Assembly (NCBI GenBank): GCA_947179485.1
Contig: CAMXBY010000004.1
Location: 124,001-188,000, forward strand
Direction of reading: 5' to 3'
Length of the DNA: 64,000 nucleotides
Source: Allacma fusca
Lineage: Eukaryota > Arthropoda > Collembola > Symphypleona > Sminthuridae
The translations under genes and the position numbers were made by a program. The notes under the pieces are model-generated. The model was not told where the DNA came from and ran no database searches. It saw only the letters and a program-made list of their open reading frames with translations. Each line of letters begins with the position of its first letter. Positions within the stretch are counted from its first letter, which is position 1. Positions 1 to 60,944 of the stretch are shown in pieces.

Positions 1-104
1 CAAAATTTTGAATGTTCGGAGATGATAGATTATGGATAAATAATATCTCAAATAAGCAATAAGACTCATGAATGGAAAATTTCTGACGATTCTTTCTTTT
101 TTAG

Positions 105-3100
105 ACTTTGATCAAAGAATCACATAATTCCCTGATAGTCTACTGGGCTGGCAAAGATGTGATAATTTGTCTTGGAAAAGATGTGAATGCAAATTCAGTG
201 TCCACATTCCACATTTCTAGAAATTATGGAGCCACATTTGATAATGCTACACCTCTTTTGAGAAAGGATATGCCTGATGGGGTAAAACCTGTACTCGACA
301 AATTCTTCAACCATCCAACTAATAACGGGAAGGTACAAAAAAGTCTTTCCTTATTCAGAATAGATGTACTGGTTGATGTCTTTTTGAATCAGTTTGGTCT
401 TTGTAATAACTTAATATTCATGACTTTCTTTGACAGTTTATTTTTACTGATGTGACAAATCATCTCATCTTTACAACTGATGATTATGGAACTAAATTCA
501 GAAGAACGAGTGTCTCGTTTGTTCCAGATGAGATTCTATTTGTTCCATATGCGGAGGAAACAATTTTTGCGTATGAAAAAAATACCGCAGAGAAGCGTGT
601 AAGTTTGTATGCGGAAATAATCCACATGATAGATCTCATCTATGAGTTACAGCTGAGAAGGTACAAGTGCATAATTATTACTGTGCCTGTTTTCGGTGTA
701 GATGTGGATCTCGAAGGATTTTGGGGCATCTTGGACGATGGCGCAAGATTTCGTCAAGTCTGTTTCTTGGGATGAATCTTCACATCCCGCAAAACTGTAT
801 ATTCATAGAGAAGAGCCTGGCGAAAAATCAGTTGTGCTAACTTCGGTATCATCATTCGTCGAACACGGAGATGTTGAAGTAAAATTTGCTGAAGTAGAGG
901 AGTTTGAAATTAAAGATGAGTACATGTTTGCTACTAAAAAGGGAATGAATGTAAGTTCAGAGTTATATCTGTTAGGGGTCTGAGTTGAGTGGAAATAACG
1001 TACTATAAATTCCCTCAAGTTTTGATTCTTCAAATGTTGAAGAAATTTTATTTAACTTTTGACAAATACAAAAATGGAACTTAATAATATCTTTGTTTGA
1101 TTTTCTAAAATATAAGTTAACACTAAGATTTAATTCTGATTATAAATATTAATTCAAAGAAGACCTTCTCTAAATCTAAATACAAAGTTAATAAAGTTAT
1201 AAAAGTTCAAGTTTAATTCCTATTACGAGTTATCAAAGCGTTACCCAAAATTCCTATCAAAATTCTAAATGTTTTCTCAAAATTTCTCGAAATACAATCC
1301 ACCAGCCTGAAGAGCTGTGGTAAAATCCTTCCTCTTCTGAGAGTAAAGGCTATCTTTCAGAAAAACTACTCGATTCTGAGAGCAAGAGTATTTTTGATAA
1401 AATGGGAGTAAAAAGGGAGAGAACCGAAACCCGAGTGCTATACGAAGAGAGAGAGAGTCCAAGAGGACAGCGTTTCGGATCGGCGTGTTCAGATCGACTG
1501 TGTATCTGTAAGATTTTCCTGGGGTATTTATACTCGGCCGCAACCGTACTCTCAAAATCCGAAGTCAATTGAATAGATTTTTATGACCTGACCATCCGGC
1601 CGAAACCAAGTTCCAACCCCGCCAGCCTGGCGCCGGTTGCTTTACATTTAAACACATGACAATACATACTTAGGCAATATCAGTTTCAATTACTTTCTTA
1701 ATCTTAGGTCTTATCGTAACTTATTTTTATTACGATCGTAAAGATCGAGACCATTGTCCGAGACAGATCCGGTTACTTAGGAAGGAGTTTTTAGATTCTC
1801 CCGGGGAAAACGTCTTACACTCTAAAATACAATGGATTTAAGCTTATTACGCACTAATAACTTATATATATATACGTCCTACGCATGGAGAGATTTCCCT
1901 CCTCTTCTCATCCGCTCGGACTGAGAGGAGCCAAAGGGTAATTTCTACACACACAGAGGAGGACTTTTCCAACTCTGGAGATTTTTATTAAAACCAACGG
2001 TCAGCAAGTTTATTCGCGTGCTATTCACGGGTACACATTCCTACGTTCATTCTAACATCCTGTTCTCATTACTACCATTACATAAAATCTTACGTTATTA
2101 TGTACGTATCAAATACTTATTTCTACGCTAAAAAGATCGTATCATATCGTTTCAAAATTATGAAAGTCGTATTCGCTGTTTTTTTGATGAATTTGTTATG
2201 GCGGCTATGTTATAGGACACACTTGAGCTTTGGATTTCTTATAAGCGCGGCCCGTTTCTGCAAGCCTTATTCCCCACACATAAACGAATAAAGAATTACC
2301 ATATTGCTGACGTTTTTGATGGCCAAGTAATAATCCCTTAATTATTCACATAAACGACGAAATGAAATAATATCATGGTTATTTGAGTTAAGTACTTATT
2401 TTCCATGTAGATGTTTGTCTGCGTGACTCACGAAAATAGCATTTCCGACTTATATGTCGGAAGTAGAAGCCCGTCACCAATGACCATGGTAAATCTTCGA
2501 TTTTCCTTATCTCTCAGTGGAATTGTTTTCTTCAAACCAAATATGACATGGTCTGATTCATGGATTAAGTACGTCATTCGGTTCATTTATTACTTAATCT
2601 TAAACTATTTTATTGCAGTTAATAATCGTATTAAGCTCTTAAATTTTACACCCATTATGTTGTTGTACATTTCTAGTAATGTCACTGATGATTCCTTTGT
2701 TGAACTGCATCGCGTGGATGGTTTGAGGGGAGTCTACATCGCTAACGTTCTAAAGAACTCTAGTGAAAGTACAAATAACATGATAAAATTGAATGAAATA
2801 ATTTCAAAAGTTACTTTTGATAATGGCGGGGAATGGCAAGTACTGAAACCACCGGAATTTGATGATGATGGGCAACCGTTGTATTGTCACTTGGTTAGAT
2901 GTATCATCATAATGATAGCGTTTATTCAAACTAGCTTTTGCATCCAATAATTCGTCAATTAATCGTAGGTACCGAGAAGCAATAATGGTGATAATTGCTC
3001 ACTTCAAATTAACCAAAGATTGAGTGAAATATTTCCTGTCACTCAAGCGGTTCCCGTACTCTCAAGAAAATCTGCAGTTGGAATCATTATGGCCACAGGA

Positions 3101-6100
3101 ACCGTCAATAATTCTCTTAAGGGTCATCAAGGTGTATTCATGTCAACTGATGGAGCTGTAACATGGAAACATGTACGCAGACTTGCTAATTAATTAAACC
3201 AAATTGTTTTATTCTACTCATGTATTGAGATCCTACCATTTTATGTGATTTTGTTTCCAAAGCTCCTTCAAGGGAACTGCTTGTTCGGATTTGGGGATCA
3301 CGGTGGTGTGATAGTTGCAGTTAAGTTCTATAAGCTTGGAGATGCCACGGACTCACTTTTGTATTCCATAAATGAGGGCGAAACGTGGAATAAATACAAG
3401 TTTTTTTACGAGAAGGTTCGCGTGTTAGGATTGATGACGGAACCAGGGGAAAATACTACTGTATTTTTGGTTTTTGGTTCTATTCCCAAAACCCAATATG
3501 GAAAGACAGGTCATTCTTGGATACTAATTCAAGTGGATCTTTTCAACGCTTTTGGTATGAATACAACCTTAAGTAAATTTTCTGATTGCATGACAGTCTG
3601 TATTGGGAGGTAGAATTTATAAGTAATTCTTCCAATGGGTTTAAAAACTGATTCGGCGTACTTTACAAACTCTTATACTCTTACTCTGTATATGGATGGA
3701 TGTAATCCGTGATACCAAGTGTCATGAATGTACACAGAAAAGCCTAGTTATAGTAAAACCAGCCTTACTGCAGGCAGCTGTTGTAGTATGACAAGATTTT
3801 TTGTTTGATGTCCTTTCGTGGCATTGCTAAAGTCCCAGTAATCGCTTGTAAGTAAAAATGAAGTGATCCTGAAATAATTGTAGGTGGCAGGAAATGCGAT
3901 CAAAATGATTACAAATTGTGGTCACCCTGGGACAGCCAACCTGGTCGTGACTGCTTGCTCGGCAAAAAGGATCACTACGAACGTCGAATTCCTTCTCATG
4001 GTTGTTACAATGGCAGATCCTACGAGCGTTTAGTAAATACTACTAAATGCCTTTGTTACAGAGTTGACTTCGAATGGTATGTCCATGGAGATAACACGCC
4101 ATTTATTTATTTCATCTAACCCTTGAATCGTACTCTCAATTTAATGTTTTTCATTTGTAGCGACTTTGGATATGTGGAAGATGAACTGAACGGTCAGTTG
4201 TGCGAGAAGGATATTTCCGATTTAAGCCCTGGTGTGAAGCCAGAATGGTGCAAGCCCGGTGACCTATATTATAATATAACCAAAGGCTACCGCAAAATAC
4301 CTGGTGATGAGTGTGAAGGTGGGGATGTGTCTAGATTTTTGCCAGAAACTAAATCGTGTGCATTGTCCAATGAAACCGAATTCAAGTTGGTAGCTAAGCG
4401 AGATTCGGTTCTCCGTATCGATTTAAATGATTTTAATAGAACTGAAGTTCTCCCGCTACTTAATGTTCGAGAAGTCACATCTGTGGATTACGATATGAAT
4501 TCTGGGTACATTTATTGGGCGGATGTGAATCGAGATAATGTCATGCGATTGAAACTTGATGGTAACAGCGAGCCAGAAATTTTGGTATCGACTGATTTGA
4601 AATCAGTGGAAGGACTAGCTTTAGACTGGATTGCGAAACATTTGTACTACTGTAATGCACTCAATGGTAGAATTGAAGTAATTAGTACAGATGTGAAAAA
4701 TATTGGAGGAAGGCGGAAGATTGTTTTGTATAAAACTCACCTGGACAACCCTCGAGGAATTGCAGTACATCCAGAAAAGGGATACTTGTTTTGGACGGAC
4801 TGGTCGAGCAATAATCCTTGTATTGGTCGTTCATGGTTGGATGGCTCAAATGTTAAACGTATTGTTGAAAACCCTACAGGAACTGGCCAAGAGATTATAC
4901 TAAAATGGCCCAATGGAATTGCCATCGATTACGAGAAAAACAATCTTTATTGGGTAGATGGATACTTAGATCACTTGGCACTTGTAGACTTTGATGGCAA
5001 AAATCTGAAAATTTTCCTGAAACAAGATTATCGTATACGACATCCATTACGTCATCCTGTGTCGGTATATAAAGATACGATCTACTGGAATGATTGGAAC
5101 ACACGTTCAATATTTGGCACAAGAAAAGATACCGATGACCCAGGGAAGGGAACTTTTTTGGTGATTGCTAATCACCCCCAATTAGTGGATCTAAAGATAT
5201 ATGGTCCTGGGAGACAAGTTGGTACAAACGCTTGTACAAATCATTCTTGCTCGCATTTATGTTTTAGCTTTCCGGGTGGACAAAATTTCACCTGCGAGTG
5301 TCCGGATGGTCTGATAAAATCAGATGGGAATTGCATATGTCCTGATGGAAAACCGACGGGCCAGAATGGTCGATGTAGCAGTAACAATTGTAACGGAAAT
5401 CCAATATTTACCTGCAAGAATTCATTCTGTATTCCAATTCACTGGAAATGTGATGGTAAGTTATTTCGAGATTATTTTTGCAAGCATTGTACTGTTGGAA
5501 CACGAAATTCAACGTTTACTCTGCGGATCAAGGTGACGACGATTGTGGAGACAATTCGGATGAAGACGGAACCACATGTGACCCAGATAACAGATGCAAC
5601 CCAGCGCAGTTTCAGTGTCTTTCTGAATTTCAGACGCCTGGCGGTGCGATTATGACAACGACTGTGCAGATGGTTCAGATGAACACAATTGCACTGATCT
5701 TTATCCTGTTTGTCATAATGCCACACATTTTCATTGTGCAAACAACAGATGTATACCTAGCCGATGGAAATGTGACGGTAAAATTTTATTTTGCATTTTA
5801 TTAACAAATAATGAAAGTCTTCAACTTACTGAATTGCATTTACTATGAACAGGAGACAATGATTGCAGGGATAATTCGGATGAACTCAATTGCACAACTA
5901 CTCCGTCTGGTTCTTGTGCTTTGAATAAATTTAGATGCAGGTCGTCAAAACGCTGTATCTCCGACCAGTGGAGGTAAAACAGTTCTAAATAATATTTTTT
6001 CAATGGTTTCAGTTTTAATTTCGAAATTATTTTTAATTCGAAACACGTTTCAAGGTGTGATGGTGACAATGATTGTGGAGATGGTTCAGATGAGAAGAAT

Positions 6101-6354
6101 TGCTCGGTTTTTACTTGCCCAGATTACAGATTTCATTGCGAGGAGAGTCATCAATGTATACTGGAAAGTTGGCATTGTGATGGTAAGTTAATCACGGAAA
6201 GGTTCAGAAGTTGGAAGACTATGGTTTCAAAAATAATTAAAATGATTTTTAACGACTAGGTGACACTGATTGTATGAAAGGTGAGGATGAACGCAATTGC
6301 TCTGCTCCTGTAACTCTCCCCCCTACTACTGTAATTCCATTTACCGTGGTATAA
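105..6354 (+). CDS. SorLA/SORL1-like sorting receptor, left copy, 5' partial
   Basis: Visible exons are 105-332, 437-598, 702-950, 2216-2326, 2411-2568, 2677-2893, 2969-3172, 3263-3554, 3884-4076, 4161-5455, 5533-5777, 5853-5973, 6055-6182 and 6260-6354, with GT-AG junctions in phase. They encode the VPS10 propeller, the cysteine-rich 10CC part, a YWTD propeller, an EGF-like module and five LDLR class A repeats. SORL1 family members are sorting receptors of the Golgi-endosome route. The signal-peptide exon would lie left of base 1. Compared with the right copy there is a 6-bp gain near 5,040 that turns the conserved HPFAVSVY motif into [10 protein letters not shown], plus missense differences (for example K instead of N in the exon at 2216). 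The frame break in LDLa repeat 2 is shared with the right copy. Confidence 0.85.
1277..1900 (-). other. Promoter-like block inside SORL1 intron, possible solo LTR, left copy
   Basis: Read on the minus strand, a GC-rich stretch (GGCGCCAGGCTGGCGGG at about 1,630) precedes a TATAAATA box at 1,525-1,532. A pyrimidine-rich transcript-leader-like stretch with CTCTCTCTC follows. Such a block in a large intron, antisense to the gene, resembles the U3-R-U5 of an insect gypsy-type LTR. No gag or pol sequence is adjacent and I could not fix ends or a target duplication. It could instead be an intragenic promoter. Confidence 0.35.
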
Positions 6355-7226
6355 GAAGTACGGACTCGCCAAATCTTATTCGGATTCTTTCATGGATCTG
6401 AGGCTAAAGTTTTGGGTTAAAGCCTGTCTAAAAATTCATAAAATATGAAATTCATTATCAGTTCAAGGTAGCCATACATGAGCAAGCTTTCAATGATATT
6501 TCCAGCCATTTATTTGCAAAAAGTTTCCGTTTTCCTTTGTCACATATAAAGTTCTGCAAATTGCGTAGATGTATATAGGCTCTCCAAAGCAAATGGGGAA
6601 TAAATTGAAAAAATTATTAAAATATTTCAAAAACCCATTTTTACGACTTAGCACGTTCCATGCATTGGATTATCTTCCTATAAGATCTCCCGTAGCAATT
6701 ACCTAATTAGTTCCAATATACAAGAGTATACAGTATTCCTGTTACTACTTCGTAGCCTAATCTGCCTATAATCAGTGTAGTAATAATAAAATTATCTCCC
6801 TTGCCACAATACATTTTATCATGTTATTCTAAATTTTTAATACTTTTATCATGACTGACACCAGGGTCAAGAACGAGTATTTAATACCAGCACGAAACTA
6901 TGAATATAAACGTGCTTATTGCTTGTCAACGTGCCCTAGCACACATACTCTTCAAAACAATTTAGTTCAGTACCAGTAGATTTAAATTACAAATCTTCCT
7001 CATTCTTATCCCCCTAATGGAGATAACAAAATTTTCTATGTCAGCGTAATTAATCATGAACTAGAAACATTGTAGTTTCCTCGTAACTGCTCATTACATC
7101 TGGCCTTTATCAAATAAATAGTAGTAAAATGCTATTGAGCACTATAGGATTAACTCTGTGATACTTTTTTAAACCCGAGTTTAGACTATATTCAAGTTTT
7201 TACATAAAAAAATTAAAATCTCCAAA

Positions 7227-9003
7227 ATGAGCTCTTCTCAATACAATCAAACTGAGGTGGATCCTTTTTTGGTAGCAAACTCCAAACTTGATAATACTCA
7301 GATAAATAGGGACGACAGCAATAGTACAGAAATTAACTGGTCATTGACTCATGAGTTACCTAAAATTGTCATTCCGCAGTAAGTAAATACATACAAAAAA
7401 ACTAATAAATCATTAAACAGTGAAAACATTATTATCGAAACGAAGGAAAAATCCAGTTCAAAGCGTCATCGTTTCACTGGGATAGCTTTGGCACTATTGT
7501 CATGTATGGGATTCTCTGCATCATCCCTAATCATAAAATATTTGAAAGAGTATGACCCTTTTACCAAAAGTGTATGGAGATTTCAAGGACTAGTACTTCC
7601 AGCGATCCCGATGATGTTATGTAGTCGCTATTTACACAAGCAACCTGTATTTGATACAATTTATCCGCCTTGTCAAGAGGACAATCGCAAAAATATCTTA
7701 TTTCTATTGGTAATGAATTTTAAATTACACAAACTTTGAACATTATGTCTTCAGATTTAATAATTATATTTTGATTTTCTTTTTCAGTTAAGATCCACTG
7801 CAGCTTTGAGCTCTCTCATTATCCAGTTTTACTCATTGCAGTACATATCTCTGGCGGATCAAATGGCAAGACTTTGTACCCTCCCTCGAAATGATATTTA
7901 TGAAATTTTAGAAGCCCAATAGGCTACGAATTTTACAAGATTCTGTAATTGAATAGGTAATTGGATCCAGTCAACCCGTGTTTGTATCGATAGTAGCTTA
8001 TTTCTTACTCGGAGAAAAATGTGGACTTATACCAGTTGTGAACTGCTTCCTAACTATCATTGGTACCCTAAATTTTTTAAACAACAAAACTAAAAATCAA
8101 TAAAATATTTTCTACATTTTTCATGTGCGCTCCAATTTTTTAAATAGGAATGTGCATTGTCGCCAAGCCTCCCATGTTAACAGGCCAGGAAAGTTTTGAG
8201 ACAGATCTCTTGGTAATCCATATAGAATAATTTTTAATATTAATATAATGTAATCTAAATTTGGCATACAAGTAATTAGATAATTGTACGTTTTTCTAGA
8301 TAGGATGTGCTCTGGCTCTTGCTAGCACAGGAATGTCAGTTATCTCAATTATTTTTACAAGAAAATTGAAACATCTTCACTTCACTATCACTGCTTTTAC
8401 CTTTGGCTTATTTTCGATCGTCGTTAGTTTGTCAGCTTCCCTGGCTTTGAAAACATTTCAGCTGCCTAAAAATGAAGCTCATCTGCTCATTGCTATTTTA
8501 TTAGCCATGTAAGTGATTTTATGAGTACACAATTTATCAAATGAGAAAACCTTAAAACAGTAGCGTTTTACCATTACCATTTAACTGAGTTTCTTTTCAA
8601 TGCTTCCTCAAGTTTCGTTTTCGTAACGCAAACGTCTACAATAGTCGCACTCAAGTATGAACAAGCGGGACCAGTGTCCTTGGTAAAAACTAGTAGCGTT
8701 GTTTTTGCATTCATTTGGCAGTACTTGTTCCTTGAGATTATCCCAGATGTTTACAGGTAAGTTTTCTATTTTTGCTTTCAAATTTAATTCTGACAGTCTA
8801 CTAAATTTTGCTGGCAGACATCGCATAACTTTTTACTTAAAGCATAAAGACAAAGTGTTTGTAAGTGTTTTACCTTATTGTGTAGTATTATTGGAGCCAT
8901 AATCATCATTGTGGCGGTTATTATTACAACCTTGCGAAAATGGGTTTCAACCTTGCCTGAAAATGACAGCAACCGAAAATTCTACAGCTTTCTTTTGAAA
9001 TGA
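7227..9003 (+). pseudogene. SLC35G-like (EamA/DMT family) gene, left copy with in-frame stop
   Basis: Exons are 7227-7709, 7788-7865, 7957-8062, 8148-8212, 8300-8508, 8613-8756 and 8886-9003. The first exon contains an in-frame TAA at 7,380-7,382, where the right copy has GAA; the codon two before it reads CCG instead of CAG. Everything downstream remains open, so loss is recent or a base-call error. The stop comes after about 51 codons, before the first membrane helix, and would abolish the transporter unless translation restarts at an internal Met, the nearest being just before the first helix (ATG at 7,488). AATAAA signals lie at 9,144 and 9,223. Confidence 0.7.
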
Positions 9004-9143
9004 TTAATTACATACCAGAGTGAAAATGAATGATTGTTACGTCCTTTTTAGTACCGTATGAGATACATATGTATCATGTGTAAAAATAAGTAAAAATGTA
9101 TTTAAATGCCCTGTATGTGTTTTTATTGACATTTTCGTTTATT

Positions 9144-9228
9144 AATAAAAATGTTTTGTTTATTGGAACCGAATATAGTATCAAAATTCTTTGCATCAGA
9201 TTATGATTCCGGCGAATCATTCAATAAA
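9144..9228 (+). promoter_or_regulatory. Polyadenylation signals of SLC35G-like gene (left copy)
   Basis: AATAAA occurs at 9,144-9,149 and 9,223-9,228, 140-225 bp after the stop codon. The mirror is at about 51,163-51,247 on the minus strand. The remaining convergent spacer to the lysyl oxidase-like 3' end (to 9,988) shows no further gene. Confidence 0.5.
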
Positions 9229-9988
9229 ATTTCGTAAGCATATCTGTTTTATTTTTTATGAAATAATAGTAAATCCGATATAGGATGTACATACATAATT
9301 CTAGTTTACAATATAGTTACGCTTTGTTTTTATTGTAATTCGTGTGCAAGATAAATTCGGCACCTAGATTGTAAAACTGAAAGAATTTTGCTACAAAAAT
9401 TATTATTTTGGAGCTATGGCTAGGTGAAAGGTCTCTTATGTATTGTAACATCGTATTTCACGGGCACTTGCGTCTTGCATAAAAAAGTACACCATCTATC
9501 TTAATTAGGTTAGGTTAAAATATGGCAAAATGATAATTTTAATATATTTATTGTTACCATGATGTGCACTTCTGACAATGAGCAAGGCAATACTTTACAT
9601 AGGTCACCTTATACTTGGCAAAGCTCCGAAACTACAAGTTTCTGCAAAACAGTTTTTTAATCGAAGCCCAAAATCCTGCTAATGCCAAGTTTTGTAGAAA
9701 ATAAATTATAGCTGTGACATGACTGGACTTGCTTCTATTATAGCAATACTGTTAAATGTTATACAAATGTTAAGCATTATCTATTTGTCAAATATGATTT
9801 TAAAAATACTATACTTTTAAAAAAGCTCTATAAATTGTAATGTTGGATTTTCAAAAATTTGCTAATTTCTTTAACGGAAAATACATATGATTATTTATCT
9901 ATTCAGTATTATAAGCTGATATTGTCCTGTACAAAATAGGTGTAACATCTTTTCTACTTGTAGGATATGCCCGTATAAAATTATTTTC

Positions 9989-12248
<2,260 letters not shown>

Positions 12249-13433
12249 TTTCTCCCTTGATTCTGAAATGCCAATTGAAATAAATGCACTCAAAAAAAAA
12301 TTATCTGCCAAACTTGACACTGTTGACCCACATAGACAGGAAAAATCTTCCCTCCCAAGATCCAACGGACTGTCAACGCTGAGACTGAGATAAGAACTAA
12401 AAGACAGGCCCTATTGCCCCAACTAATCTTTGTGCAGTGCAGGACCTCAGGAAATGAGAATTGCAGTGAACGAAGGATGAAAAAAGGGAAATGTAAGAAA
12501 AAAAAATCATCAGTTTGCATACGGACGAGAGAATTAAAGATGAGTGGGGAGAGAGAAATTTATCTGCGAAATCGTTTTATTTTTATATTTAGCGTTGACA
12601 AGAGCTTGGCCCAATAATTTGAATTGTACTCTTCAATAAAAGTATTTGTATGTAGACTAATATCCAAATGTAATCACTCGTATTTGCCACAAAGTTGTTG
12701 GAAATGCATGACTCAGCTTGGTCGCTTGGTATTTTGGCTCTCGTGTGTAATGTCACACGCATAAATAACCTACGAGGACTTATGCACGTTCACAATTTAA
12801 ATTACTTGTGACGGCTTGGAAACCTGAGAACTCCCGTTTTTTCTTTGCTCCTACCCTCACTACCGAAATTCATCTCTGCCCTCGCTCAAAAGCTTACGCA
12901 GACAAAACATCAGTTAAGGTTTTTTACACTCTCAATTTGTCTAAACATGCTGCTTCCATCCCGATTCTTCTGGCAAGATCTCATTCTTTCCTTTTGAATC
13001 TCTCAAAGGGTAACTTCAGCGTACACTAGACCATATCGCTTGACGTCTTTCCATTGATTTCCATTCTATTAATTTTGTGATATTCCTACCCTAAGTCTCC
13101 GTATTTAATTGCCACTCCCCAGAAACATGATCAAATTGCGTAAGCTCCGTGAATTTTTCTCGTTAAATAAGAACAATAATAATTGGCTTAAGAAGCAAGA
13201 AAGTTAGATTTGACAATCTTGCGTTGTTAATACTGTACTTGATCTGATGTCCAATAAAAATAAGGAATTAGGTCAAAAAAGAAGTGCACGAACTCATAAT
13301 CTATTTCCTAAGATTAGTTGAATCAATCCAAGGTTCCATGCACCCATTTTTGTGGGGATTTTTTATAAATATCTTGTATAAATCTCTGTTTTTCAATACG
13401 CCTTTGCCAAAGATTACAACTACTGCATAAGGA
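12249..13433. other. Upstream region of the lysyl oxidase-like gene, no gene seen (left)
   Basis: The mirror is about 46,958-48,141. It holds the non-coding leader and probable promoter of the lysyl oxidase-like gene, including a splice acceptor (ggcatttcag) just before the start codon. Short open frames here have no recognisable protein features. Confidence 0.4.
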
Positions 13434-46957: not shown

Positions 46958-48141
46958 CGTTATGCAGTACTTGTAATCTTTGGCAAAGGCGTATTGAAAA
47001 ACAGAGATTTATACAAGATATTTATAAAAAATCCCCACAAAAATGGGTGCATGGAACCTTGGATTGATTCAACTAATCTTAGGAAATAGATTATGAGTTC
47101 GTGCACTTCTTTTTTGACCTAATTCCTTATTTTTATTGGACATCAGATCAAGTACAGTATTAACAACGCAAGATTGTCAAATCTAGCTTTCTTTCTTCAT
47201 AAGCCAATTAATATTGTTCTTATTTCACGAGAAAAATTCACGGAGCTTACGCAATTTGATCATGTTTCTGGGGAGTGGCAATTAAATACGCAGACTTAGG
47301 GTAGGAATATCACAAAATTAATAGAATGGAAATCAATGGAAAGACGTCAAGCGATATGGTCTAGTGTACGCTGAAGTTACCCTTTGAGAGATTCAAAAGG
47401 AAAGAATGAGATCTTGCCAGAAGAATCGGGATGGAAGCAGCATGTTTAGACAAATTGAGAGTGTAAAAAACCTTAACTGATGTTTTGTCTGCGTAAGCTT
47501 TTGAGCGAGGGCAGAGATGAATTTCGGTAGTGAGGGTAGGAGCAAAGAAAAAACGGGAGTTCTCAGGTTTCCAAGCCGTCACAAGTAATTTAAATTGTGA
47601 ACGTGCATAAGTCCTCGTCGGTTATTTATGCGTGTGACATTACACACGAGAGCCAAAATACCAAGCGACCAAGCTGAGTCATGCATTTCCAACAACTTTG
47701 TGGCAAATACGAGTGATTACATTTGGATATTAGTCTACATACAAATACTTTTATTGAAGAGTACAATTCAAATTATTGGGCCAAGCTCTTGTCAACGCTA
47801 AATATAAAAATAAAACGATTTCGCAGATAAATTTCTCTCTCCCCACTCATCTTTAATTCTCTCGTCCGTATGCAAACTGATGATTTTTTTTTCTTACATT
47901 TCCCTTTTTTCATCCTTCGTTCACTGCAATTCTCATTTCCTGAGGTCCTGCACTGCACAAAGATTAGTTGGGGCAATAGGGCCTGTCTTTTAGTTCTTAT
48001 CTCAGTCTCAGCGTTGACAGTCCGTTGGATCTTGGGAGGGAAGATTTTTCCTGTCTATGTGGGTCAACAGTGTCAAGTTTGGCAGATAATTTTTTTTTGA
48101 GTGCATTTATTTCAATTGGCATTTCAGAATCAAGGGAGAAA

Positions 48142-50402
<2,261 letters not shown>

Positions 50403-51387
50403 GAAAATAATTTTATACGGGCATATCCTACAAGTAGAAAAGATGTTACACCTATTTTGTACAGGACAATATCAGCTTATAATACTGAATAGATAAATAA
50501 TCATATGTATTTTCCGTTAAAGAAATTAGCAAATTTTTGAAAATCCAACATTACAATTTATAGAGCTTTTTTAAAAGTATAGTATTTTTAAAATCATATT
50601 TGACAAATAGATAATGCTTAACATTTGTATAACATTTAACAGTATTGCTATAATAGAAGCAAGTCCAGTCATGTCACAGCTATAATTTATTTTCTACAAA
50701 ACTTGGCATTAGCAGGATTTTGGGCTTCGATTAAAAAACTGTTTTGCAGAAACTTGTAGTTTCGGAGCTTTGCCAAGTATAAGGTGACCTATGTAAAGTA
50801 TTGCCTTGCTCATTGTCAGAAGTGCACATCATGGTAACAATAAATATATTAAAATTATCATTTTGCCATATTTTAACCTAACCTAATTAAGATAGATGGT
50901 GTACTTTTTTATGCAAGACGCAAGTGCCCGTGAAATACGATGTTACAATACATAAGAGACCTTTCACCTAGCCATAGCTCCAAAATAATAATTTTTGTAG
51001 CAAAATTCTTTCAGTTTTACAATCTAGGTGCCGAATTTATCTTGCACACGAATTACAATAAAAACAAAGCGTAACTATATTGTAAACTAGAATTATGTAT
51101 GTACATCCTATATCGGATTTACTATTATTTCATAAAAAATAAAACAGATATGCTTACGAAATTTTATTGAATGATTCGCCGGAATCATAATCTGATGCAA
51201 AGAATTTTGATACTATATTCGGTTCCAATAAACAAAACATTTTTATTAATAAACGAAAATGTCAATAAAAACACATACAGGGCATTTAAATACATTTTTA
51301 CTTATTTTTACACATGATACATATGTATCTCATACGGTACTAAAAAGTACGCAACAATCATTCATTTTCACTCTGGTATGTAATTAA

Positions 51388-53164
51388 TCATTTCAAAAGA
51401 AAGCTGTAGAATTTTCGGTTGCTGTCATTTTCAGGCAAGGTTGAAACCCATTTTCGCAAGGTTGTAATAATAACCGCCACAATGATGATTATGGCTCCAA
51501 TAATACTACACAATAAGGTAAAACACTTACAAACACTTTGTCTTTATGCTTTAAGTAAAAAGTTATGCGATGTCTGCCAGCAAAATTTAGTAGACTGTCA
51601 GAATTAAATTTGAAAGCAAAAATAGAAAACTTACCTGTAAACATCTGGGATAATCTCAAGGAACAAGTACTGCCAAATGAATGCAAAAACAACGCTACTA
51701 GTTTTTACCAAGGACACTGGTCCCGCTTGTTCATACTTGAGTGCGACTATTGTAGAAGTTTGCGTTACGAAAACGAAACTTGAGGAAGCATTGAAAAGAA
51801 ACTCAGTTAAATGGTAATGGTAAAACGCTACTGTTTTAAGGTTTTCTCATTTGATAAATTGTGTACTCATAAAATCACTTACATGGCTAATAAAATAGCA
51901 ATGAGCAGATGAGCTTCATTTTTAGGCAGCTGAAATGTTTTCAAAGCCAGGGAAGCTGACAAACTAACGACGATCGAAAATAAGCCAAAGGTAAAAGCAG
52001 TGATAGTGAAGTGAAGATGTTTCAATTTTCTTGTAAAAATAATTGAGATAACTGACATTCCTGTGCTAGCAAGAGCCAGAGCACATCCTATCTAGAAAAA
52101 CGTACAATTATCTAATTACTTGTATGCCAAATTTAGATTACATTATATTAATATTAAAAATTATTCTATATGGATTACCAAGAGATCTGTCTCAAAACTT
52201 TCCTGGCCTGTTAACATGGGAGGCTTGGCGACAATGCACATTCCTATTTAAAAAATTGGAGCGCACATGAAAAATGTAGAAAATATTTTATTGATTTTTA
52301 GTTTTGTTGTTTAAAAAATTTAGGGTACCAATGATAGTTAGGAAGCAGTTCACAACTGGTATAAGTCCACATTTTTCTCCGAGTAAGAAATAAGCTACTA
52401 TCGATACAAACACGGGTTGACTGGATCCAATTACCTATTCAATTACAGAATCTTGTAAAATTCGTAGCCTATTGGGCTTCTAAAATTTCATAAATATCAT
52501 TTCGAGGGAGGGTACAAAGTCTTGCCATTTGATCCGCCAGAGATATGTACTGCAATGAGTAAAACTGGATAATGAGAGAGCTCAAAGCTGCAGTGGATCT
52601 TAACTGAAAAAGAAAATCAAAATATAATTATTAAATCTGAAGACATAATGTTCAAAGTTTGTGTAATTTAAAATTCATTACCAATAGAAATAAGATATTT
52701 TTGCGATTGTCCTCTTGACAAGGCGGATAAATTGTATCAAATACAGGTTGCTTGTGTAAATAGCGACTACATAACATCATCGGGATCGCTGGAAGTACTA
52801 GTCCTTGAAATCTCCATACACTTTTGGTAAAAGGGTCATACTCTTTCAAATATTTTATGATTAGGGATGATGCAGAGAATCCCATACATGACAATAGTGC
52901 CAAAGCTATCCCAGTGAAACGATGACGCTTTGAACTGGATTTTTCCTTCGTTTCGATAATAATGTTTTCACTGTTTAATGATTTATTAGTTTTTTTGTAT
53001 GTATTTACTTCCTGCTGAATGACAATTTTAGGTAACTCATGAGTCAATGACCAGTTAATTTCTGTACTATTGCTGTCGTCCCTATTTATCTGAGTATTAT
53101 CAAGTTTGGAGTTTGCTACCAAAAAAGGATCCACCTCAGTTTGATTGTATTGAGAAGAGCTCAT
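51388..53164 (-). CDS. SLC35G-like multi-pass membrane protein (EamA/DMT superfamily), right copy
   Basis: Seven exons join in phase to about 400 codons, close to SLC35G proteins. After a polar N-terminus of about 90 residues come hydrophobic helices; the first begins GIALALLSCMGFSASSLIIK. The stretch SLADQM-VIGSSQPVF aligns with the family pattern LADA..I.FSSPVF, followed by a GEK motif (FLLGEKCG). A late EamA-type segment (YEQAGPVSLVKTSSVVFAFI) and a basic C-terminus follow. The intron after LADQM uses GC rather than GT (ATG|gcaaga), which is the only join that keeps both frame and alignment. Family members are putative nucleotide-sugar or organic-solute transporters of internal membranes; the substrate cannot be read from sequence. 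The gene lies tail-to-tail with the lysyl oxidase-like gene. Confidence 0.85.
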
Positions 53165-54036
53165 TTTGGAGATTTTAATTTTTTTATGTAAAAACTTGAA
53201 TATAGTCTAAACTCGGGTTTAAAAAAGTATCACAGAGTTAATCCTATAGTGCTCAATAGCATTTTACTACTATTTATTTGATAAAGGCCAGATGTAATGA
53301 GCAGTTACGAGGAAACTACAATGTTTCTAGTTCATGATTAATTACGCTGACATAGAAAATTTTGTTATCTCCATTAGGGGGATAAGAATGAGGAAGATTT
53401 GTAATTTAAATCTACTGGTACTGAACTAAATTGTTTTGAAGAGTATGTGTGCTAGGGCACGTTGACAAGCAATAAGCACGTTTATATTCATAGTTTCGTG
53501 CTGGTATTAAATACTCGTTCTTGACCCTGGTGTCAGTCATGATAAAAGTATTAAAAATTTAGAATAACATGATAAAATGTATTGTGGCAAGGGAGATAAT
53601 TTTATTATTACTACACTGATTATAGGCAGATTAGGCTACGAAGTAGTAACAGGAATACTGTATACTCTTGTATATTGGAACTAATTAGGTAATTGCTACG
53701 GGAGATCTTATAGGAAGATAATCCAATGCATGGAACGTGCTAAGTCGTAAAAATGGGTTTTTGAAATATTTTAATAATTTTTTCAATTTATTCCCCATTT
53801 GCTTTGGAGAGCCTATATACATCTACGCAATTTGCAGAACTTTATATGTGACAAAGGAAAACGGAAACTTTTTGCAAATAAATGGCTGGAAATATCATTG
53901 AAAGCTTGCTCATGTATGGCTACCTTGAACTGATAATGAATTTCATATTTTATGAATTTTTAGACAGGCTTTAACCCAAAACTTTAGCCTCAGATCCATG
54001 AAAGAATCCGAATAAGATTTGGCGAGTCCGTACTTC

Positions 54037-57000
54037 TTATACCACGGTAAATGGAATTACAGTAGTAGGGGGGAGAGTTACAGGAGCAGAGCAATTGCGT
54101 TCATCCTCACCTTTCATACAATCAGTGTCACCTAGTCGTTAAAAATCATTTTAATTATTTTTGAAACCATAGTCTTCCAACTTCTGAACCTTTCCGTGAT
54201 TAACTTACCATCACAATGCCAACTTTCCAGTATACATTGATGACTCTCCTCGCAATGAAATCTGTAATCTGGGCAAGTAAAAACCGAGCAATTCTTCTCA
54301 TCTGAACCATCTCCACAATCATTGTCACCATCACACCTTGAAACGTGTTTCGAATTAAAAATAATTTCGAAATTAAAACTGAAACCATTGAAAAAATATT
54401 ATTTAGAACTGTTTTACCTCCACTGGTCGGAGATACAGCGTTTTGACGACCTGCATCTAAATTTATTCAAAGCACAAGAACCAGACGGAGTAGTTGTGCA
54501 ATTGAGTTCATCCGAATTATCCCTGCAATCATTGTCTCCTGTTCATAGTAAATGCAATTCAGTAAGTTGAAGACTTTCATTATTTGTTAATAAAATGCAA
54601 AATAAAATTTTACCGTCACATTTCCATCGGCTAGGTATACATCTGTTGTTTGCACAATGAAAATGTGTGGCATTATGACAAACAGGATAAAGATCAGTGC
54701 AATTGTGTTCATCTGAACCATCTGCACAGTCGTTGTCATAATCGCACCGCCAGGCGTCTGAAATTCAGAAAGACACTGAAACTGCGCTGGGTTGCATCTG
54801 TTATCTGGGTCACATGTGGTTCCGTCTTCATCCGAATTGTCTCCACAATCGTCGTCACCTTGATCCGCAGAGTAAACGTTGAATTTCGTGTTCCAACAGT
54901 ACAATGCTTGCAAAAATAATCTCGAAATAACTTACCATCACATTTCCAGTGAATTGGAATACAGAATGAATTCTTGCAGGTAAATATTGGATTTCCGTTA
55001 CAATTGTTACTGCTACATCGACCATTCTGGCCCGTCGGTTTTCCATCAGGACATATGCAATTCCCATCTGATTTTATCAGACCATCCGGACACTCGCAGG
55101 TGAAATTTTGTCCACCCGGAAAGCTAAAACATAAATGCGAGCAAGAATGATTTGTACAAGCGTTTGTACCAACTTGTCTCCCAGGACCATATATCTTTAG
55201 ATCCACTAATTGGGGGTGATTAGCAATCACCAAAAAAGTTCCCTTCCCTGGGTCATCGGTATCTTTTCTTGTGCCAAATATTGAACGTGTGTTCCAATCA
55301 TTCCAGTAGATCGTATCTTTATATACCGACACAGCAAATGGATGTCGTATACAATAATCTTGTTTCAGGAAAATTTTCAGATTTTTGCCATCAAAGTCTA
55401 CAAGTGCCAAGTGATCTAAGTATCCATCTACCCAATAAAGATTGTTTTTCTCGTAATCGATGGCAATTCCATTGGGCCATTTTAGTATAATCTCTTGGCC
55501 AGTTCCTGTAGGGTTTTCAACAATACGTTTAACATTTGAGCCATCCAACCATGAACGACCAATACAAGGATTATTGCTCGACCAGTCCGTCCAAAACAAG
55601 TATCCCTTTTCTGGATGTACTGCAATTCCTCGAGGGTTGTCCAGGTGAGTTTTATACAAAACAATCTTCCGCCTTCCTCCAATATTTTTCACATCTGTAC
55701 TAATTACTTCAATTCTACCATTGAGTGCATTACAGTAGTACAAATGTTTCGCAATCCAGTCTAAAGCTAGTCCTTCCACTGATTTCAAATCAGTCGATAC
55801 CAAAATTTCTGGCTCGCTGTTACCATCAAGTTTCAATCGCATGACATTATCTCGATTCACATCCGCCCAATAAATGTACCCAGAATTCATATCGTAATCC
55901 ACAGATGTGACTTCTCGAACATTAAGTAGCGGGAGAACTTCAGTTCTATTAAAATCATTTAAATCGATACGGAGAACCGAATCTCGCTTAGCTACCAACT
56001 TGAATTCGGTTTCATTGGACAATGCACACGATTTAGTTTCTGGCAAAAATCTAGACACATCCCCACCTTCACACTCATCACCAGGTATTTTGCGGTAGCC
56101 TTTGGTTATATTATAATATAGGTCACCGGGCTTGCACCATTCTGGCTTCACACCAGGGCTTAAATCGGAAATATCCTTCTCGCACAACTGACCGTTCAGT
56201 TCATCTTCCACATATCCAAAGTCGCTACAAATGAAAAACATTAAATTGAGAGTACGATTCAAGGGTTAGATGAAATAAATAAATGGCGTGTTATCTCCAT
56301 GGACATACCATTCGAAGTCAACTCTGTAACAAAGGCATTTAGTAGTATTTACTAAACGCTCGTAGGATCTGCCATTGTAACAACCATGAGAAGGAATTCG
56401 ACGTTCGTAGTGATCCTTTTTGCCGAGCAAGCAGTCACGACCAGGTTGGCTGTCCCAGGGTGACCACAATTTGTAATCATTTTGATCGCATTTCCTGCCA
56501 CCTACAATTATTTCAGGATCACTTCATTTTTACTTACAAGCGATTACTGGGACTTTAGCAATGCCACGAAAGGACATCAAACAAAAAATCTTGTCATACT
56601 ACAACAGCTGCCTGCAGTAAGGCTGGTTTTACTATAACTAGGCTTTTCTGTGTACATTCATGACACTTGGTATCACGGATTACATCCATCCATATACAGA
56701 GTAAGAGTATAAGAGTTTGTAAAGTACGCCGAATCAGTTTTTAAACCCATTGGAAGAATTACTTATAAATTCTACCTCCCAATACAGACTGTCATGCAAT
56801 CAGAAAATTTACTTAAGGTTGTATTCATACCAAAAGCGTTGAAAAGATCCACTTGAATTAGTATCCAAGAATGACCTGTCTTTCCATATTGGGTTTTGGG
56901 AATAGAACCAAAAACCAAAAATACAGTAGTATTTTCCCCTGGTTCCGTCATCAATCCTAACACGCGAACCTTCTCGTAAACAAACTTGTATTTATTCCAC

Positions 57001-60000
57001 GTTTCGCCCTCATTTATGGAATACAAAAGTGAGTCCGTGGCATCTCCAAGCTTACAGAACTTAACTGCAACTATCACACCACCGTGATCCCCAAATCCGA
57101 ACAAGTAGTTCCCTTGAAGGAGCTTTGGAAACAAAATCACATAAAATGGTAGGATCTCAATACATGAGTAGAATAAAACAATTTGGTTTAATTAATTAGC
57201 AAGTCTGCGTACATGTTTCCATGTTACAGCTCCATCAGTTGACATGAATACACCTTGATGACCCTTAAGAGAATTATTGACGGTTCCTGTGGCCATAATG
57301 ATTCCAACTGCAGATTTTCTTGAGAGTACGGGAACCGCTTGAGTGACAGGAAATATTTCACTCAATCTTTGGTTAATTTGAAGTGAGCAATTATCACCAT
57401 TATTGCTTCTCGGTACCTACGATTAATTGACGAATTATTGGATGCAAAAGCTAGTTTGAATAAACGCTATCATTATGATGATAAATCTAACCAAGTGACA
57501 ATACAACGGTTGCCCATCATCATCAAATTCCGGTGGTTTCAGTACTTGCCATTCCCCGCCATTATCAAAAGTAACTTTTGAAATTATTTCATTCAATTTT
57601 ATCATGTTATTTGTACTTTCACTAGAGTTCTTTAGAACGTTAGCGATGTAGACTCCCCTCAAACCATCCACGCGATGCAGTTCAACAAAGGAATCATCAG
57701 TGACATTACTAGAAATGTACAACAACATAATGGGTGTAAAATTTAAGAGCTTAATACGATTATTAACTGCAATAAAATAGTTTAAGATTAAGTAATAAAT
57801 GAACCGAATGACGTACTTAATCCATGAATCAGACCATGTCATATTTGGTTTGAAGAAAACAATTCCACTGAGAGATAAGGAAAATCGAAGATTTACCATG
57901 GTCATTGGTGACGGGCTTCTACTTCCGACATATAAGTCGGAAATGCTATTTTCGTGAGTCACGCAGACAAACATCTACATGGAAAATAAGTACTTAACTC
58001 AAATAACCATGATATTATTTCATTTCGTCGTTTATGTGAATAATTAAGGGATTATTACTTGGCCATCAAAAACGTCAGCAATATGGTAATTATTTATTCG
58101 TTTATGTGTGGGGAATAAGGCTTGCAGAAACGGGCCGCGCTTATAAGAAATCCAAAGCTCAAGTGTGTCCTATAACATAGCCGCCATAACAAATTCATCA
58201 AAAAAACAGCGAATACGACTTTCATAATTTTGAAACGATATGATACGCTCTTTTTAGCGTAGAAATAAGTATTTGATACGTACATAATAACGTAAGATTT
58301 TATGTAATGGTAGTAATGAGAACAGGATGTTAGAATGAACGTAGGAATGTGTACCCGTGAATAGCACGCGAATAAACTTGCTGACCGTTGGTTTTAATAA
58401 AAATCTCCAGAGTTGGAAAAGTCCTCCTCTGTGTGTGTAGAAATTACCCTTTGGCTCCTCTCAGTCCGAGCGGATGAGAAGAGGAGGGAAATCTCTCCAT
58501 GCGTAGGACGTATATATATATAAGTTATTAGTGCGTAATAAGCTTAAATCCATTGTATTTTAGAGTGTAAGACGTTTTCCCCGGGAGAATCTAAAAACTC
58601 CTTCCTAAGTAACCGGATCTGTCTCGGACAATGGTCTCGATCTTTACGATCGTAATAAAAATAAGTTACGATAAGACCTAAGATTAAGAAAGTAATTGAA
58701 ACTGATATTGCCTAAGTATGTATTGTCATGTGTTTAAATGTAAAGCAACCGGCGCCAGGCTGGCGGGGTTGGAACTTGGTTTCGGCCGGATGGTCAGGTC
58801 ATAAAAATCTATTCAATTGACTTCGGATTTTGAGAGTACGGTTGCGGCCGAGTATAAATACCCCAGGAAAATCTTACAGATACACAGTCGATCTGAACAC
58901 GCCGATCCGAAACGCTGTCCTCTTGGACTCTCTCTCTCTTCGTATAGCACTCGGGTTTCGGTTCTCTCCCTTTTTACTCCCATTTTATCAAAAATACTCT
59001 TGCTCTCAGAATCGAGTAGTTTTTCTGAAAGATAGCCTTTACTCTCAGAAGAGGAAGGATTTTACCACAGCTCTTCAGGCTGGTGGATTGTATTTCGAGA
59101 AATTTTGAGAAAACATTTAGAATTTTGATAGGAATTTTGGGTAACGCTTTGATAACTCGTAATAGGAATTAAACTTGAACTTTTATAACTTTATTAACTT
59201 TGTATTTAGATTTAGAGAAGGTCTTCTTTGAATTAATATTTATAATCAGAATTAAATCTTAGTGTTAACTTATATTTTAGAAAATCAAACAAAGATATTA
59301 TTAAGTTCCATTTTTGTATTTGTCAAAAGTTAAATAAAATTTCTTCAACATTTGAAGAATCAAAAGTAAACTTGAGGGAATTTATAGTACGTTATTTCCA
59401 CTCAACTCAGACCCCTAACAGATATAACTCTGAACTTACATTCATTCCCTTTTTAGTAGCAAACATGTACTCATCTTTAATTTCAAACTCCTCTACTTCA
59501 GCAAATTTTACTTCAACATCTCCGTGTTCGACGAATGATGATACCGAAGTTAGCACAACTGATTTTTCGCCAGGCTCTTCTCTATGAATATACAGTTTTG
59601 CGGGATGTGAAGATTCATCCCAAGAAACAGACTTGACGAAATCTTGCGCCATCGTCCAAGATGCCCCAAAATCCTTCGAGATCCACATCTACACCGAAAA
59701 CAGGCACAGTAATAATTATGCACTTGTACCTTCTCAGCTGTAACTCATAGATGAGATCTATCATGTGGATTATTTCCGCATACAAACTTACACGCTTCTC
59801 TGCGGTATTTTTTTCATACGCAAAAATTGTTTCCTCCGCATATGGAACAAATAGAATCTCATCTGGAACAAACGAGACACTCGTTCTTCTGAATTTAGTT
59901 CCATAATCATCAGTTGTAAAGATGAGATGATTTGTCACATCAGTAAAAATAAACTGTCAAAGAAAGTCATGAATATTAAGTTATTACAAAGACCAAACTG

Positions 60001-60944
60001 ATTCAAAAAGACATAAACCAGTACATCTATTCTGAATAAGGAAAGACTTTTTTGTACCTTCCCGTTATTAGTTGGATGGTTGAAGAATTTGTCGAGTACA
60101 GGTTTTACCCCATCAGGCATATCCTTTCTCAAAAGAGGTGTAGCATTATCAAATGTGGCTCCATAATTTCTAGAAATGTGGAATGTGGACACTGAATTTG
60201 CATTCACATCTTTTCCAAGACAAATTATCACATCTTTGCCAGCCCAGTAGACTATCAGGGAATTATGTGATTCTTTGATCAAAGTCTAAAAAAGAAAGAA
60301 TCGTCAGAAATTTTCCATTCATGAGTCTTATTGCTTATTTGAGATATTATTTATCCATAATCTATCATCTCCGAACATTCAAAATTTTGTACATATACGT
60401 ATATGTAAGCACAAATTGCATGTCTACTTAAACTCTCAATATCAATTTCATACGCTCAAATAATTACGATCAGTATTAAAAAAAAATTATCGATAAGTAT
60501 GACGATCGTCGATAAAAAAAACTACTGCAGTGCAGAAAAAATCTTCAAGCGTCAGAGGTTATACATAACACTCGGCTGGACAGAACTAGACTGGTCAAAT
60601 ATACTAATAACACTGACATTAAATTGTAATAATTACAAAAAACAATTAAAAATACGCACGAAAAACGTATTTTACCATCAAATTACGCTTACCACATGAG
60701 TTGTAATATTAGGATGAGATGCTTCTGTGTGAATATCTCGTTTCCTCCTTTCATTCTCCACTCGAGTCTCTACAAATTCTTGCTCATTGGAATTATAATA
60801 CACCTGTTGAGGTGTATTTCTCTCAGAATTCGAGACAGGCTGAAATGATAGCCCCGACAATTGATTGCTATACGAAACACAAACGGTGAGCAACAGCAAG
60901 ATCACTGCTCCAGGAGATCTCTGTAACCTCAAAGATGACAACAT
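54037..60944 (-). CDS. SorLA/SORL1-like sorting receptor, right copy with first exon
   Basis: Fifteen coding exons run from 60,944 down to 54,037: 60693-60944, 60058-60285, 59792-59953, 59440-59688, 58059-58169, 57817-57974, 57492-57708, 57213-57416, 56831-57122, 56309-56501, 54936-56224, 54614-54858, 54418-54538, 54209-54336 and 54037-54131. Exon 1 gives a hydrophobic signal peptide ([19 protein letters not shown]) and a furin-type RRKR site, as in SorLA propeptides. VPS10, 10CC, YWTD (motifs YWAD, FWTD, YWVD, YWND), EGF-like and five LDLa modules follow, the order of animal SORL1. The 1,289-bp exon holding the whole YWTD propeller is unusually long. Reading frame is lost inside LDLa repeat 2. 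The last exon stops after a Thr/Pro stretch, with an alternative GT donor (GTG|gtataag) just before the stop. No FnIII, membrane or tail region is visible, so the product would be secreted or the gene is broken. Confidence 0.88.
58485..59108 (+). other. Promoter-like block, possible solo LTR, right copy
   Basis: Mirror of 1,277-1,900. The TATAAATA box is at 58,853-58,860, preceded by GC-rich sequence at 58,746-58,770 and followed by a CT-rich segment at 58,920-58,980. It lies in the intron between SORL1 exons 59440-59688 and 58059-58169, antisense to the gene. Presence in both arms at the same place means it was inserted before the duplication. Confidence 0.35.

Follow-up and report, generated by a model that had tools for sequence, protein, structure and literature searches.

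The window, a 64,000-bp stretch (positions 124,001 to 188,000) of C11, a separate 209-kb contig of the Allacma fusca assembly qeAllFusc8.1, contains a mirror repeat in which positions 1-21,082 match the inverted 60,389-39,385 with 99.6-99.7% identity on either side of an 18.3-kb core. The arms, their genes and the core with its two edges are as follows.

1..21082, minus strand: left arm, inner 21.1 kb of 28,275 bp, placed by alignment
105..6259, plus strand: part of a SORL1-like gene (Vps10, LDLR class B and class A domains), left arm
7185..8981, plus strand: EamA-type transporter gene, left arm, on Pfam matches under the cut-off
10209..12410, minus strand: LOXL2-like gene (SRCR and lysyl oxidase domains), left arm
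15163..17550, minus strand: gene of unknown family, four long ORFs, left arm
18820..19241, no strand: minisatellite of 75-bp units, 5.6 copies, left arm
21082..21083, no strand: edge of core U1 read as native (arm-U1 continuity)
21083..39384, plus strand: core U1, 18,302 bp, one per unit of the array described below
39355..39384, plus strand: novel edge J1, a 30-bp insertion between U1 and arm
39385..64000, plus strand: right arm, inner 24.6 kb of 28,209 bp, placed by alignment
41225..41571, no strand: minisatellite of 75-bp units, 4.6 copies, right arm
42842..45229, plus strand: right-arm copy of the unknown-family gene
47980..50182, plus strand: LOXL2-like gene, right arm
51409..53206, minus strand: EamA-type transporter gene, right arm, inner end mirrored from the left copy
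54131..60995, minus strand: SORL1-like gene, right arm, inner end placed by mirror

Alignment of window 1-19,205 with the inverted 60,389-41,185 gives 99.58% identity over 19,215 columns (61 mismatches and 20 gap positions), and that of 18,895-21,082 with the inverted 41,571-39,385 gives 99.68% over 2,189 columns. The length of this match excludes chance, and the large inverted duplication proposed in the original prediction is borne out, together with its inner junctions, which had been put at about 21,085 and 39,383 and lie within three bases of there, at 21,082/21,083 and 39,384/39,385. Position 60,389, however, had been taken for the outer right junction, whereas it mirrors the first base of the window and the arm continues beyond it. 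The suspicion that the arms might be longer than the view was justified since, on C11, the complete left arm covers 116,808-145,082 (28,275 bp) and the complete right arm 163,385-191,593 (28,209 bp). The outer 7.2 kb of the left arm lie to the left of the window, the final 2 kb being one end of a Polinton-like element, and the true outer end of the right arm corresponds to window position 67,593, beyond the window.

Four genes per arm had been predicted, which is roughly right: a SORL1-like gene, an EamA-type transporter, a LOXL2-like gene and one with no Pfam match up to an E-value of 0.1. The extent of the SORL1-like gene in the left arm was drawn from ORFs, without a gene model, and its right copy has a likely first exon at 60,678-60,995, picked by eye and devoid of Pfam matches. 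A SORL1-like exon was found in 13 close places and is stop-free in 11 of them. Rfam and tRNA scans gave no hits. The largest length difference between the two arms of the window is in the minisatellite, which is one unit shorter in the right arm.

No gene was recognised in U1, which was found with a 1-kb probe at ~100% identity in two places on C11 and in three on C10, the 66,084,411-bp sequence of chromosome 3, an autosome that is neither X1 nor X2. We infer that its 21,082/21,083 edge is ancestral; the same arm-U1 continuity is present at all three C10 copies. The opposite edge, J1, carries an insertion that is missing at the chromosomal left flank (the native flank being at C10 47,906,319) and that forms, together with the start of the arm, a perfect inverted repeat of 10 bp around a 16-nt loop. 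This was matched in 7 of 200,000 shuffles of the insertion, in a test picked once the repeat had been seen. The J1 letters are read again at C10 48,056,224, in one C10 U1 only, while for the third C10 U1 the adjacency is deduced from coordinates. As assembled, U1 orientations are (-,-,-) on C10 and (-,+) on C11, and the C11 copies correspond to C10 copies a and c over 4 kb, on one SNP.

The palindrome is part of a longer structure, a multi-copy array whose second core derives from a transposon, which was beyond the reach of the original prediction. Across all 209,059 bp of C11, arm, a second core (U2), arm and U1 alternate, and the same alternating order is found on C10 in an array of ~286 kb with seven arm copies, the full unit (arm, U2, inverted arm, U1) measuring ~90 kb. 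A supposed contig gap at C10 47,979,460 turned out to be a 497-bp deletion without N. A third junction, which occurs on C10 and C11 in opposite orientations, is an arm-to-arm turn with a 5.4-kb spacer and a 20-bp insertion; a deletion of U1 alone could have produced it, yet a fold-back also accounts for the mirrored order of C11. The spacers at the three turns measure 5.4, 15.4 and 18.3 kb, and each palindrome centre (U1, U2 and the third junction) has one native and one novel edge, which is the signature of a fold-back inverted duplication followed by amplification. C10 extends ~18 Mb past the array. A diverged edge copy of the arm (C10 48.16-48.19 Mb), whose identity falls unevenly outwards from ~100% to 88%, retains the element-free site. 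That the right edge of the array grades into this copy is not predicted by a simple one-step model. A candidate full arm at 48.71 Mb was discarded, three surrounding stretches having no arm or U1 match.

Polintons, or Mavericks, are characterized by an rve-type integrase, an adenovirus-like protease and a protein-primed DNA polymerase B, to which are added a packaging ATPase, a double-jelly-roll capsid protein, terminal inverted repeats and a target-site duplication. U2 is the interior of a Polinton-like element, near-identical copies of which are dispersed in the genome, ruling out a plain unique spacer. The element, of which ~17 kb is present in the array, contains an rve-type integrase (PF00665, E 6.6e-12, 46.0 bits against a cut-off of 32.6) and an adenovirus-type protease match (PF00770) that scores 21.0 bits, just under the cut-off of 21.3, with packaging ATPase and double-jelly-roll capsid protein represented by sub-cut-off matches only. 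A 1,353-aa ORF, presumed to encode the protein-primed DNA polymerase B, has no Pfam match above cut-off, no PHROGs match and no PDB match. The array copies, which lie at palindrome centres, lack one end of the element. The U2 edges in the array are not element ends with a target-site duplication, since three other copies continue past one edge and an ORF spans the other. All three other element copies that were fetched diverge from the array at the same base, J2, which is identical in the three U2 slots of C11, and the other edge of U2 is passed unbroken in 28 of the 43 matches listed outside the array (75-100% identity). A 4-bp CTGG microhomology at J2 was dropped, the microhomology being 1 bp only. 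U2 orientations are (+,-,+) on both contigs. A search for literature on springtails and Polintons found no papers.

We consider it probable that the locus is an array within chromosome 3 in which inverted repeats alternate and which was amplified recently, the window displaying one of its palindromes, and we infer for it an origin by fold-back or template switching. A Polinton-like element would have landed at the arm's outer end, after which breaks inside the element (J2) and at the far end of U1 (J1) would have led to fold-back or template switching on the same molecule, leaving long inverted repeats with spacers of 15.4 and 18.3 kb, respectively. Such paired, opposite U-turns would allow several copies of the unit to arise through replication or unequal exchange, a further U-turn within the arm (the third junction) would have mirrored a block, and homologous arm-arm exchange could mix arm sequence and flip the cores.

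The replication route is deduced from its end product, and stepwise inverted duplication with unequal crossing-over would look similar. A stepwise segmental duplication, in which one or two inverted duplications are followed by unequal crossing-over that makes the units and arm recombination that flips the cores, is in fact quite possible. It concerns the route alone, which would involve neither a rolling-circle nor a bridge-cycle step, the array itself being common to both explanations. The U1 copies (0.008% mismatch) and two of the three U2 copies (0.026%) differ less than any C11 arm pair (0.076-0.26%), as if the palindrome had preceded the units, and two of the C10 U1 copies are spaced by 90,176 bp, the length of one unit. 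However, the third U2 copy (0.07-0.08%) overlaps the closest arm pairs, and the other spacing (149,932 bp) contains the third junction. Moreover, several independent flips would be needed for the U2 orientations seen on both contigs, and the mirror of C11 about the third junction is simpler as one extra fold-back.

The C11 arms are 99.6-99.95% identical in their main alignments, some reaching 100% over 2 kb, and the window's own pair mismatches at 0.26-0.32%. Recent formation is the best supported of the options originally offered for this similarity. Gene conversion, also proposed, fares less simply. Among the five C11 arms, 35 of 91 informative site pairs fail the four-gamete test, so the arms seem to have exchanged sequence, although assembly switching could mimic such a pattern; nevertheless, the likeness of the arms need not be due to conversion, U1 and two U2 copies being closer than the arms. 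A conserved palindrome, maintained by selection for conversion between its arms in the manner of mammalian sex chromosomes, would fit both these site pairs, which do not conform to a tree, and the lysyl oxidase exon, identical and open in all 12 array places including the diverged edge copy. This scenario is nonetheless very doubtful, considering that the location is autosomal, that U1, outside the arms, is more alike than they are and that recent age is enough. As to the analogy with sex chromosomes, the placed array is on chromosome 3 and not on X1 or X2.

All of this is taken from assembly sequence. Allacma DNA was sheared to 12-20 kb in an ultra-low-input protocol (PMC10427803), which is shorter than the arm, and copy number and orientations are therefore provisional; few if any reads would span a 28-kb arm, and the core orientations could be assembler choices. 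With the two contigs aligned in a common order, C10 carries one U1 and the third junction reversed relative to C11, which may bear on the inversion polymorphism that had been suggested. Most variable sites in 4.6 kb of arm (five C11 and three C10 copies) are private to one copy, and they give no pairing of slots between the two contigs, so that C11 may be the other haplotype or an additional part of the same array; a slot-by-slot allelism of the two contigs is neither backed nor excluded by these arm variants. That the array is an assembly product, in which copies of a simpler duplication were collapsed or mis-phased, with C11 an unplaced haplotig and the cores scrambled, appears unlikely. The separate 209-kb contig, the DNA sheared below arm length and the missing slot match to C10 are in line with it, but J1 and the third junction, insertions included, are each read once per contig, no two of the five C11 arms (87 differing sites or runs, ten pairs) are identical for more than 5,985 bp, which is within a HiFi read, and three checked stretches of the C10 array contain no N. 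A head-to-head joining of two haplotypes during assembly, another of the original suggestions, is scarcely credible: the arms are near identical and the closest C11 pairs (0.076%) approach an autosomal heterozygosity of 0.08%, derived in this analysis for one other individual, but the window's own pair, at up to 0.32%, exceeds this value about fourfold. A stronger counterpoint is that chromosome 3 has seven arm copies besides those of C11 and that the novel junction bases are present on both contigs.

Several known systems resemble the array. Alternating inverted arms with two cores are a feature of the double rolling-circle replication (DRCR) HSR-type inverted intrachromosomal arrays of yeast (Watanabe & Horiuchi 2005, following the account in PMC3147054), in which sequences between the inverted repeats occur in either orientation, as the cores may do here on C10 and C11. 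However, those arrays come from a designed system, whereas the springtail array is natural, in an animal and known as an end product. Fold-back inverted duplications with disomic spacers (PMC3907307) likewise have a spacer with a native and a novel edge, with spacer lengths (0.77-70 kb) that embrace those found here and insertions at some junctions; their novel edges are marked by 2-8 bp of microhomology or an insertion, compared with insertions of 30 and 20 bp and a single base at J2 here. These rearrangements, from patients, are nonrecurrent and come with terminal deletions, translocations or rings, unlike the springtail array, in which the distal chromosome is retained and the unit amplified. 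ODIRA inverted triplications (PMC10766183) are also interstitial, with inverted arms and flanks kept, and the short inverted repeat at J1 recalls them, but ODIRA uses pre-existing short inverted repeats within ~100 bp and the spacers here are kilobases long. Secondary change after an ODIRA-type start could still have occurred at the springtail junctions. Mammalian sex-chromosome ampliconic palindromes (PMC6790999, PMC8981503) share gene-bearing arms that are >99% identical, whereas the springtail palindromes are autosomal and form an alternating array with two cores. In Atlantic cod, Mavericks are enriched where one rearranged region of chromosome 12 has its breakpoints (PMC12368964), a density effect at two-breakpoint inversions, while in the springtail a single element is the palindrome centre and the junction base is known. 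Among the papers surveyed by title and opening of the abstract, none described a Polinton as a palindrome turning point, and none beyond PMC3907307 was judged relevant to bridge-cycle palindromes in arthropod germlines.

For the animal, the array would mean additional copies of the gene block, most of them with open reading frames; any selected function is hypothetical. A bolder scenario, rather unlikely but possible, is that paired fold-back or double-rolling-circle replication, set off by a break within a freshly inserted Polinton-like element, built a natural array in the germline whose cores still flip between individuals, in a species with paternal genome elimination. If true, the springtail would offer a standing, testable case in an animal of an amplification described from tumours and from designed systems in yeast. 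In the part of the literature surveyed, support for fold-back and rolling-circle amplification models comes mostly from yeast selections, patients and tumours. One turning point of the palindromes lies inside a virus-like transposon, the Polinton-like element, so that a rearrangement more familiar from yeast and tumours can be read in the chromosome of an animal. In the assembly of one animal, the edges are readable together with the spacers and inserted bases, the copies of the unit and the diverged edge copy and, with an element-free site also surviving, the succession of events can be reconstructed. Population samples could reveal whether changes in copy number and in core orientation are still going on.

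The large inverted duplication claimed by the original prediction is real, and it is larger than noted: the window samples an autosomal array of alternating palindromes. In a self-alignment, window bases 1-21,082 match inverted 60,389-39,385 at 99.58-99.68% identity around a core of 18,302 bp, in agreement, within 3 bases, with inner junctions predicted at about 21,085 and 39,383. Position 60,389, however, is not an outer junction but the place on the other arm that matches window base 1. Self-comparison of the entire contig (C11, 209,059 bases) outlined an alternation of gene-bearing arms of up to about 28 kb (A1-A6) with two cores, U1 and U2; the window (C11 124,001-188,000) spans U1, a portion of A4 and the greater part of A5.

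Repeat units on contig C11, from self-comparison of the entire contig
1-12,651, U1 (partial)
12,652-40,851, arm A1
40,852-56,290, U2
56,291-81,536, arm A2
between 81,536 and 81,557, 20 bp separating A2 and A3
81,557-101,368, arm A3
101,369-116,807, U2
116,808-145,082, arm A4
145,083-163,384, U1
163,385-191,593, arm A5
191,594-207,049, U2
207,050 to contig end, arm A6

The C11 arms are 99.6-99.95% identical in the main alignments (the final 2 kb being identical in some pairs), with 0.076-0.26% mismatches among the ten pairs of A1-A5. The U2 copies are 99.79-99.97% identical (mismatches 0.026-0.084%), and over 12.65 kb only a single base and a single gap set the two U1 copies apart. U1 holds a cluster of imperfect tandem repeats (window 29236-29713, units of ~18-41 bp), and the arm a high-copy repeat of ~810 bp (window 20124-20933, found as query 2025-2833 of window 18100-24100) with more than 30 dispersed matches at 92-99%.

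A second contig, C10 (66,084,411 bases), carries the array between 47,906,319 and 48,192,420 (286 kb). An arm query returned 13 rows, five on C11 and eight on C10 (47.94, 47.98, 48.00, 48.04, 48.09, 48.13, 48.18 and 48.71 Mb), seven of the latter within the array, which also holds three places matching U1 and three matching the U2 edge. An arm on C10 lacks 497 bp that all five C11 arms covering that place retain. We take the searched genome (392,743,791 bases, 91 contigs) to be a slightly different version of qeAllFusc8.1, for which the published account gives 392,786,974 bases in 95 scaffolds, a scaffold N50 of 66,084,411, longest and N90 scaffolds of 81,897,997 and 48,066,046, and chromosomes of 81.9, 75.61, 66.08, 58.81, 55.59 (X1) and 48.07 (X2) Mb (PMC10427803). 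By its length, C10 is thus chromosome 3, an autosome. A heterozygous inversion is reported on this chromosome at about 5-45 Mb (PMC10427803); the array lies ~3 Mb outside it.

Could the window arms be two haplotypes? They differ at 61 of 19,215 positions (0.32%), ~4x the autosomal heterozygosity of 0.08% that we derive for one other individual from a count of 227,570 autosomal variants left after filtering in 282 Mb (PMC9630974), although filtered calls may understate it; the same source gives a far lower heterozygosity for a second individual. Since such understatement is possible and the closest arm pairs (0.076%) are no more divergent than 0.08%, mismatch alone would still allow haplotypes. 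More weight against two haplotypes comes from the junctions that the contigs share and from the seven other arm copies that C10 carries.

U2 is the inside of what we take, from family knowledge and domain matches, to be a Polinton-like element. It encodes an rve integrase (PF00665, E 6.6e-12). A protease match of adenovirus type falls barely short of its cut-off (21.0 bits, with 21.3 required), and the matches for an ATPase and a double-jelly-roll protein are also sub-threshold; an ORF of 1,353 aa, without a Pfam match over cut-off or any match in PHROGs or PDB, we read as its putative polymerase. About 2 kb at one end of the element belongs to the arm. A search across the U2/arm-end edge listed 43 rows: 12 belong to the array, three are short pieces, and the other 28, outside the array, run unbroken across this edge at 75-100% identity. 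At the right edge of the C10 array, near 48,192,420, a diverged arm copy (A*) presents an element-free site, A* and arm being alike through GATTAGG and diverging thereafter. C11 ends at 209,059, within ~ten bases of the expected meeting of Polinton-like end and arm proper, which suggests that assembly halted at this repeat boundary.

The opposite edge of U2 (J2) is different. Before ACAGAAG, all three other fetched element copies read ...GACACTCG, whereas the array reads ...TTTGCTGG, the opposite end of the same element, inverted, identically in the three C11 U2 slots. At J1, a 30-bp insertion stands between U1 and the arm, as read on C11 and at C10 48,056,224 and, we infer from coordinates, at the third C10 U1; where U1 meets the left flank of the chromosome, it stops at C10 47,906,319, and the sequence beyond has no counterpart in C11. 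Together with the start of the arm, the insertion makes a 10-bp inverted repeat around a 16-nt loop; when the insertion was shuffled 200,000 times, 7 shuffles equalled this, in a test picked after the repeat was seen. At a third junction, arm offset 2,961 meets inverted offset 8,401 across 20 inserted bases; this junction is found reversed on C10 (1,201 bp, 99.4%, five mismatches, two gaps). These readings define three palindrome centres, with spacers of 18.3, 15.4 and 5.4 kb, each bounded by a native edge on one side and a novel edge on the other. The fold-back inverted duplications described in PMC3907307 likewise have such spacers (766-70,466 bp at 21/21 sequenced junctions), with related repeats at three of the 21, microhomology of 2-8 bp at 13 and insertions at five. 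The microhomology at J2, only 1 bp, is a weak point for the fold-back reading.

U1 is oriented -,-,- on C10 and -,+ on C11, and U2 +,-,+ on both. C11 from 1 to ~157,700 is a mirror about the third junction, with main alignments at 99.88-99.97%; a single additional fold-back would yield this arrangement at once. Aligned to reversed C10, C11 has only one U1 flipped, but it would overrun the point of the native left flank. Cores of DRCR arrays in yeast are reported to be randomly oriented (PMC3147054). Because the DNA was sheared to 12-20 kb (PMC10427803), shorter than an arm, the core flips may be true or may be assembler choices; likewise, amplification may have been replicative or by unequal exchange. 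The longest identical run between any two of the five C11 arms (ten pairs) is 5,985 bp, which counts against wholesale mis-assembly.

Among five arms, 35 of 91 informative-site pairs are incompatible with an exchange-free tree. Within alignment columns 7382-8314, 15 SNPs in less than 1 kb, a density far above the rest, divide A1/A4 from A2/A5; A* is nearer the A1/A4 form (99.05 versus 98.4-98.5%), and the stretch is likely a conversion tract. A* is ~100% identical to the arms over the first 3 kb beside U1, then 97.4-97.6, 98.4-99.1, 96.8-96.9, 98, ~92-94 and 88%: its divergence is uneven, yet identity falls outwards. The right edge thus grades into an older, diverged copy, a transition that we read as recombination. 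Farther out, a SORL1-like copy (93%) lies at C10 48.71 Mb; three stretches near it match neither the arm nor U1.

The arm genes are SORL1-like (Sortilin-Vps10, Ldl_recept_b and Ldl_recept_a domains), LOXL2-like (SRCR and Lysyl_oxidase), an EamA-type transporter (Pfam matches under cut-off) and a fourth without a Pfam match. Of 37 rows for the SORL1-like exon, 13 are close places, 11 of them stop-free and two with one TGA (the remaining 24 are distant, at most 45% identity). At all 12 array places, A* included, the lysyl oxidase exon has the same sequence and is open, the other two of 14 rows being a 72-75% relative on C5 (X1); its unchanged state in the diverged A* may point to constraint on the protein.

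Taken together, we consider it probable that this is an autosomal array of alternating palindromes made by a fold-back type of rearrangement, one of whose turning points lies in a Polinton-like element. Elsewhere, at least ten main places (ten of 158 candidates scored, the array's own U2 copies not among them) carry U2-like sequence, seven of them at 99-100% (C1:58.39 and 19.70 Mb; C9:41.92 and 4.15 Mb; C10:51.72 Mb; C8:30.55 Mb; C13:258545-266435); judged by such similarity, this Polinton-like family looks to have been recently active in the Allacma fusca genome.
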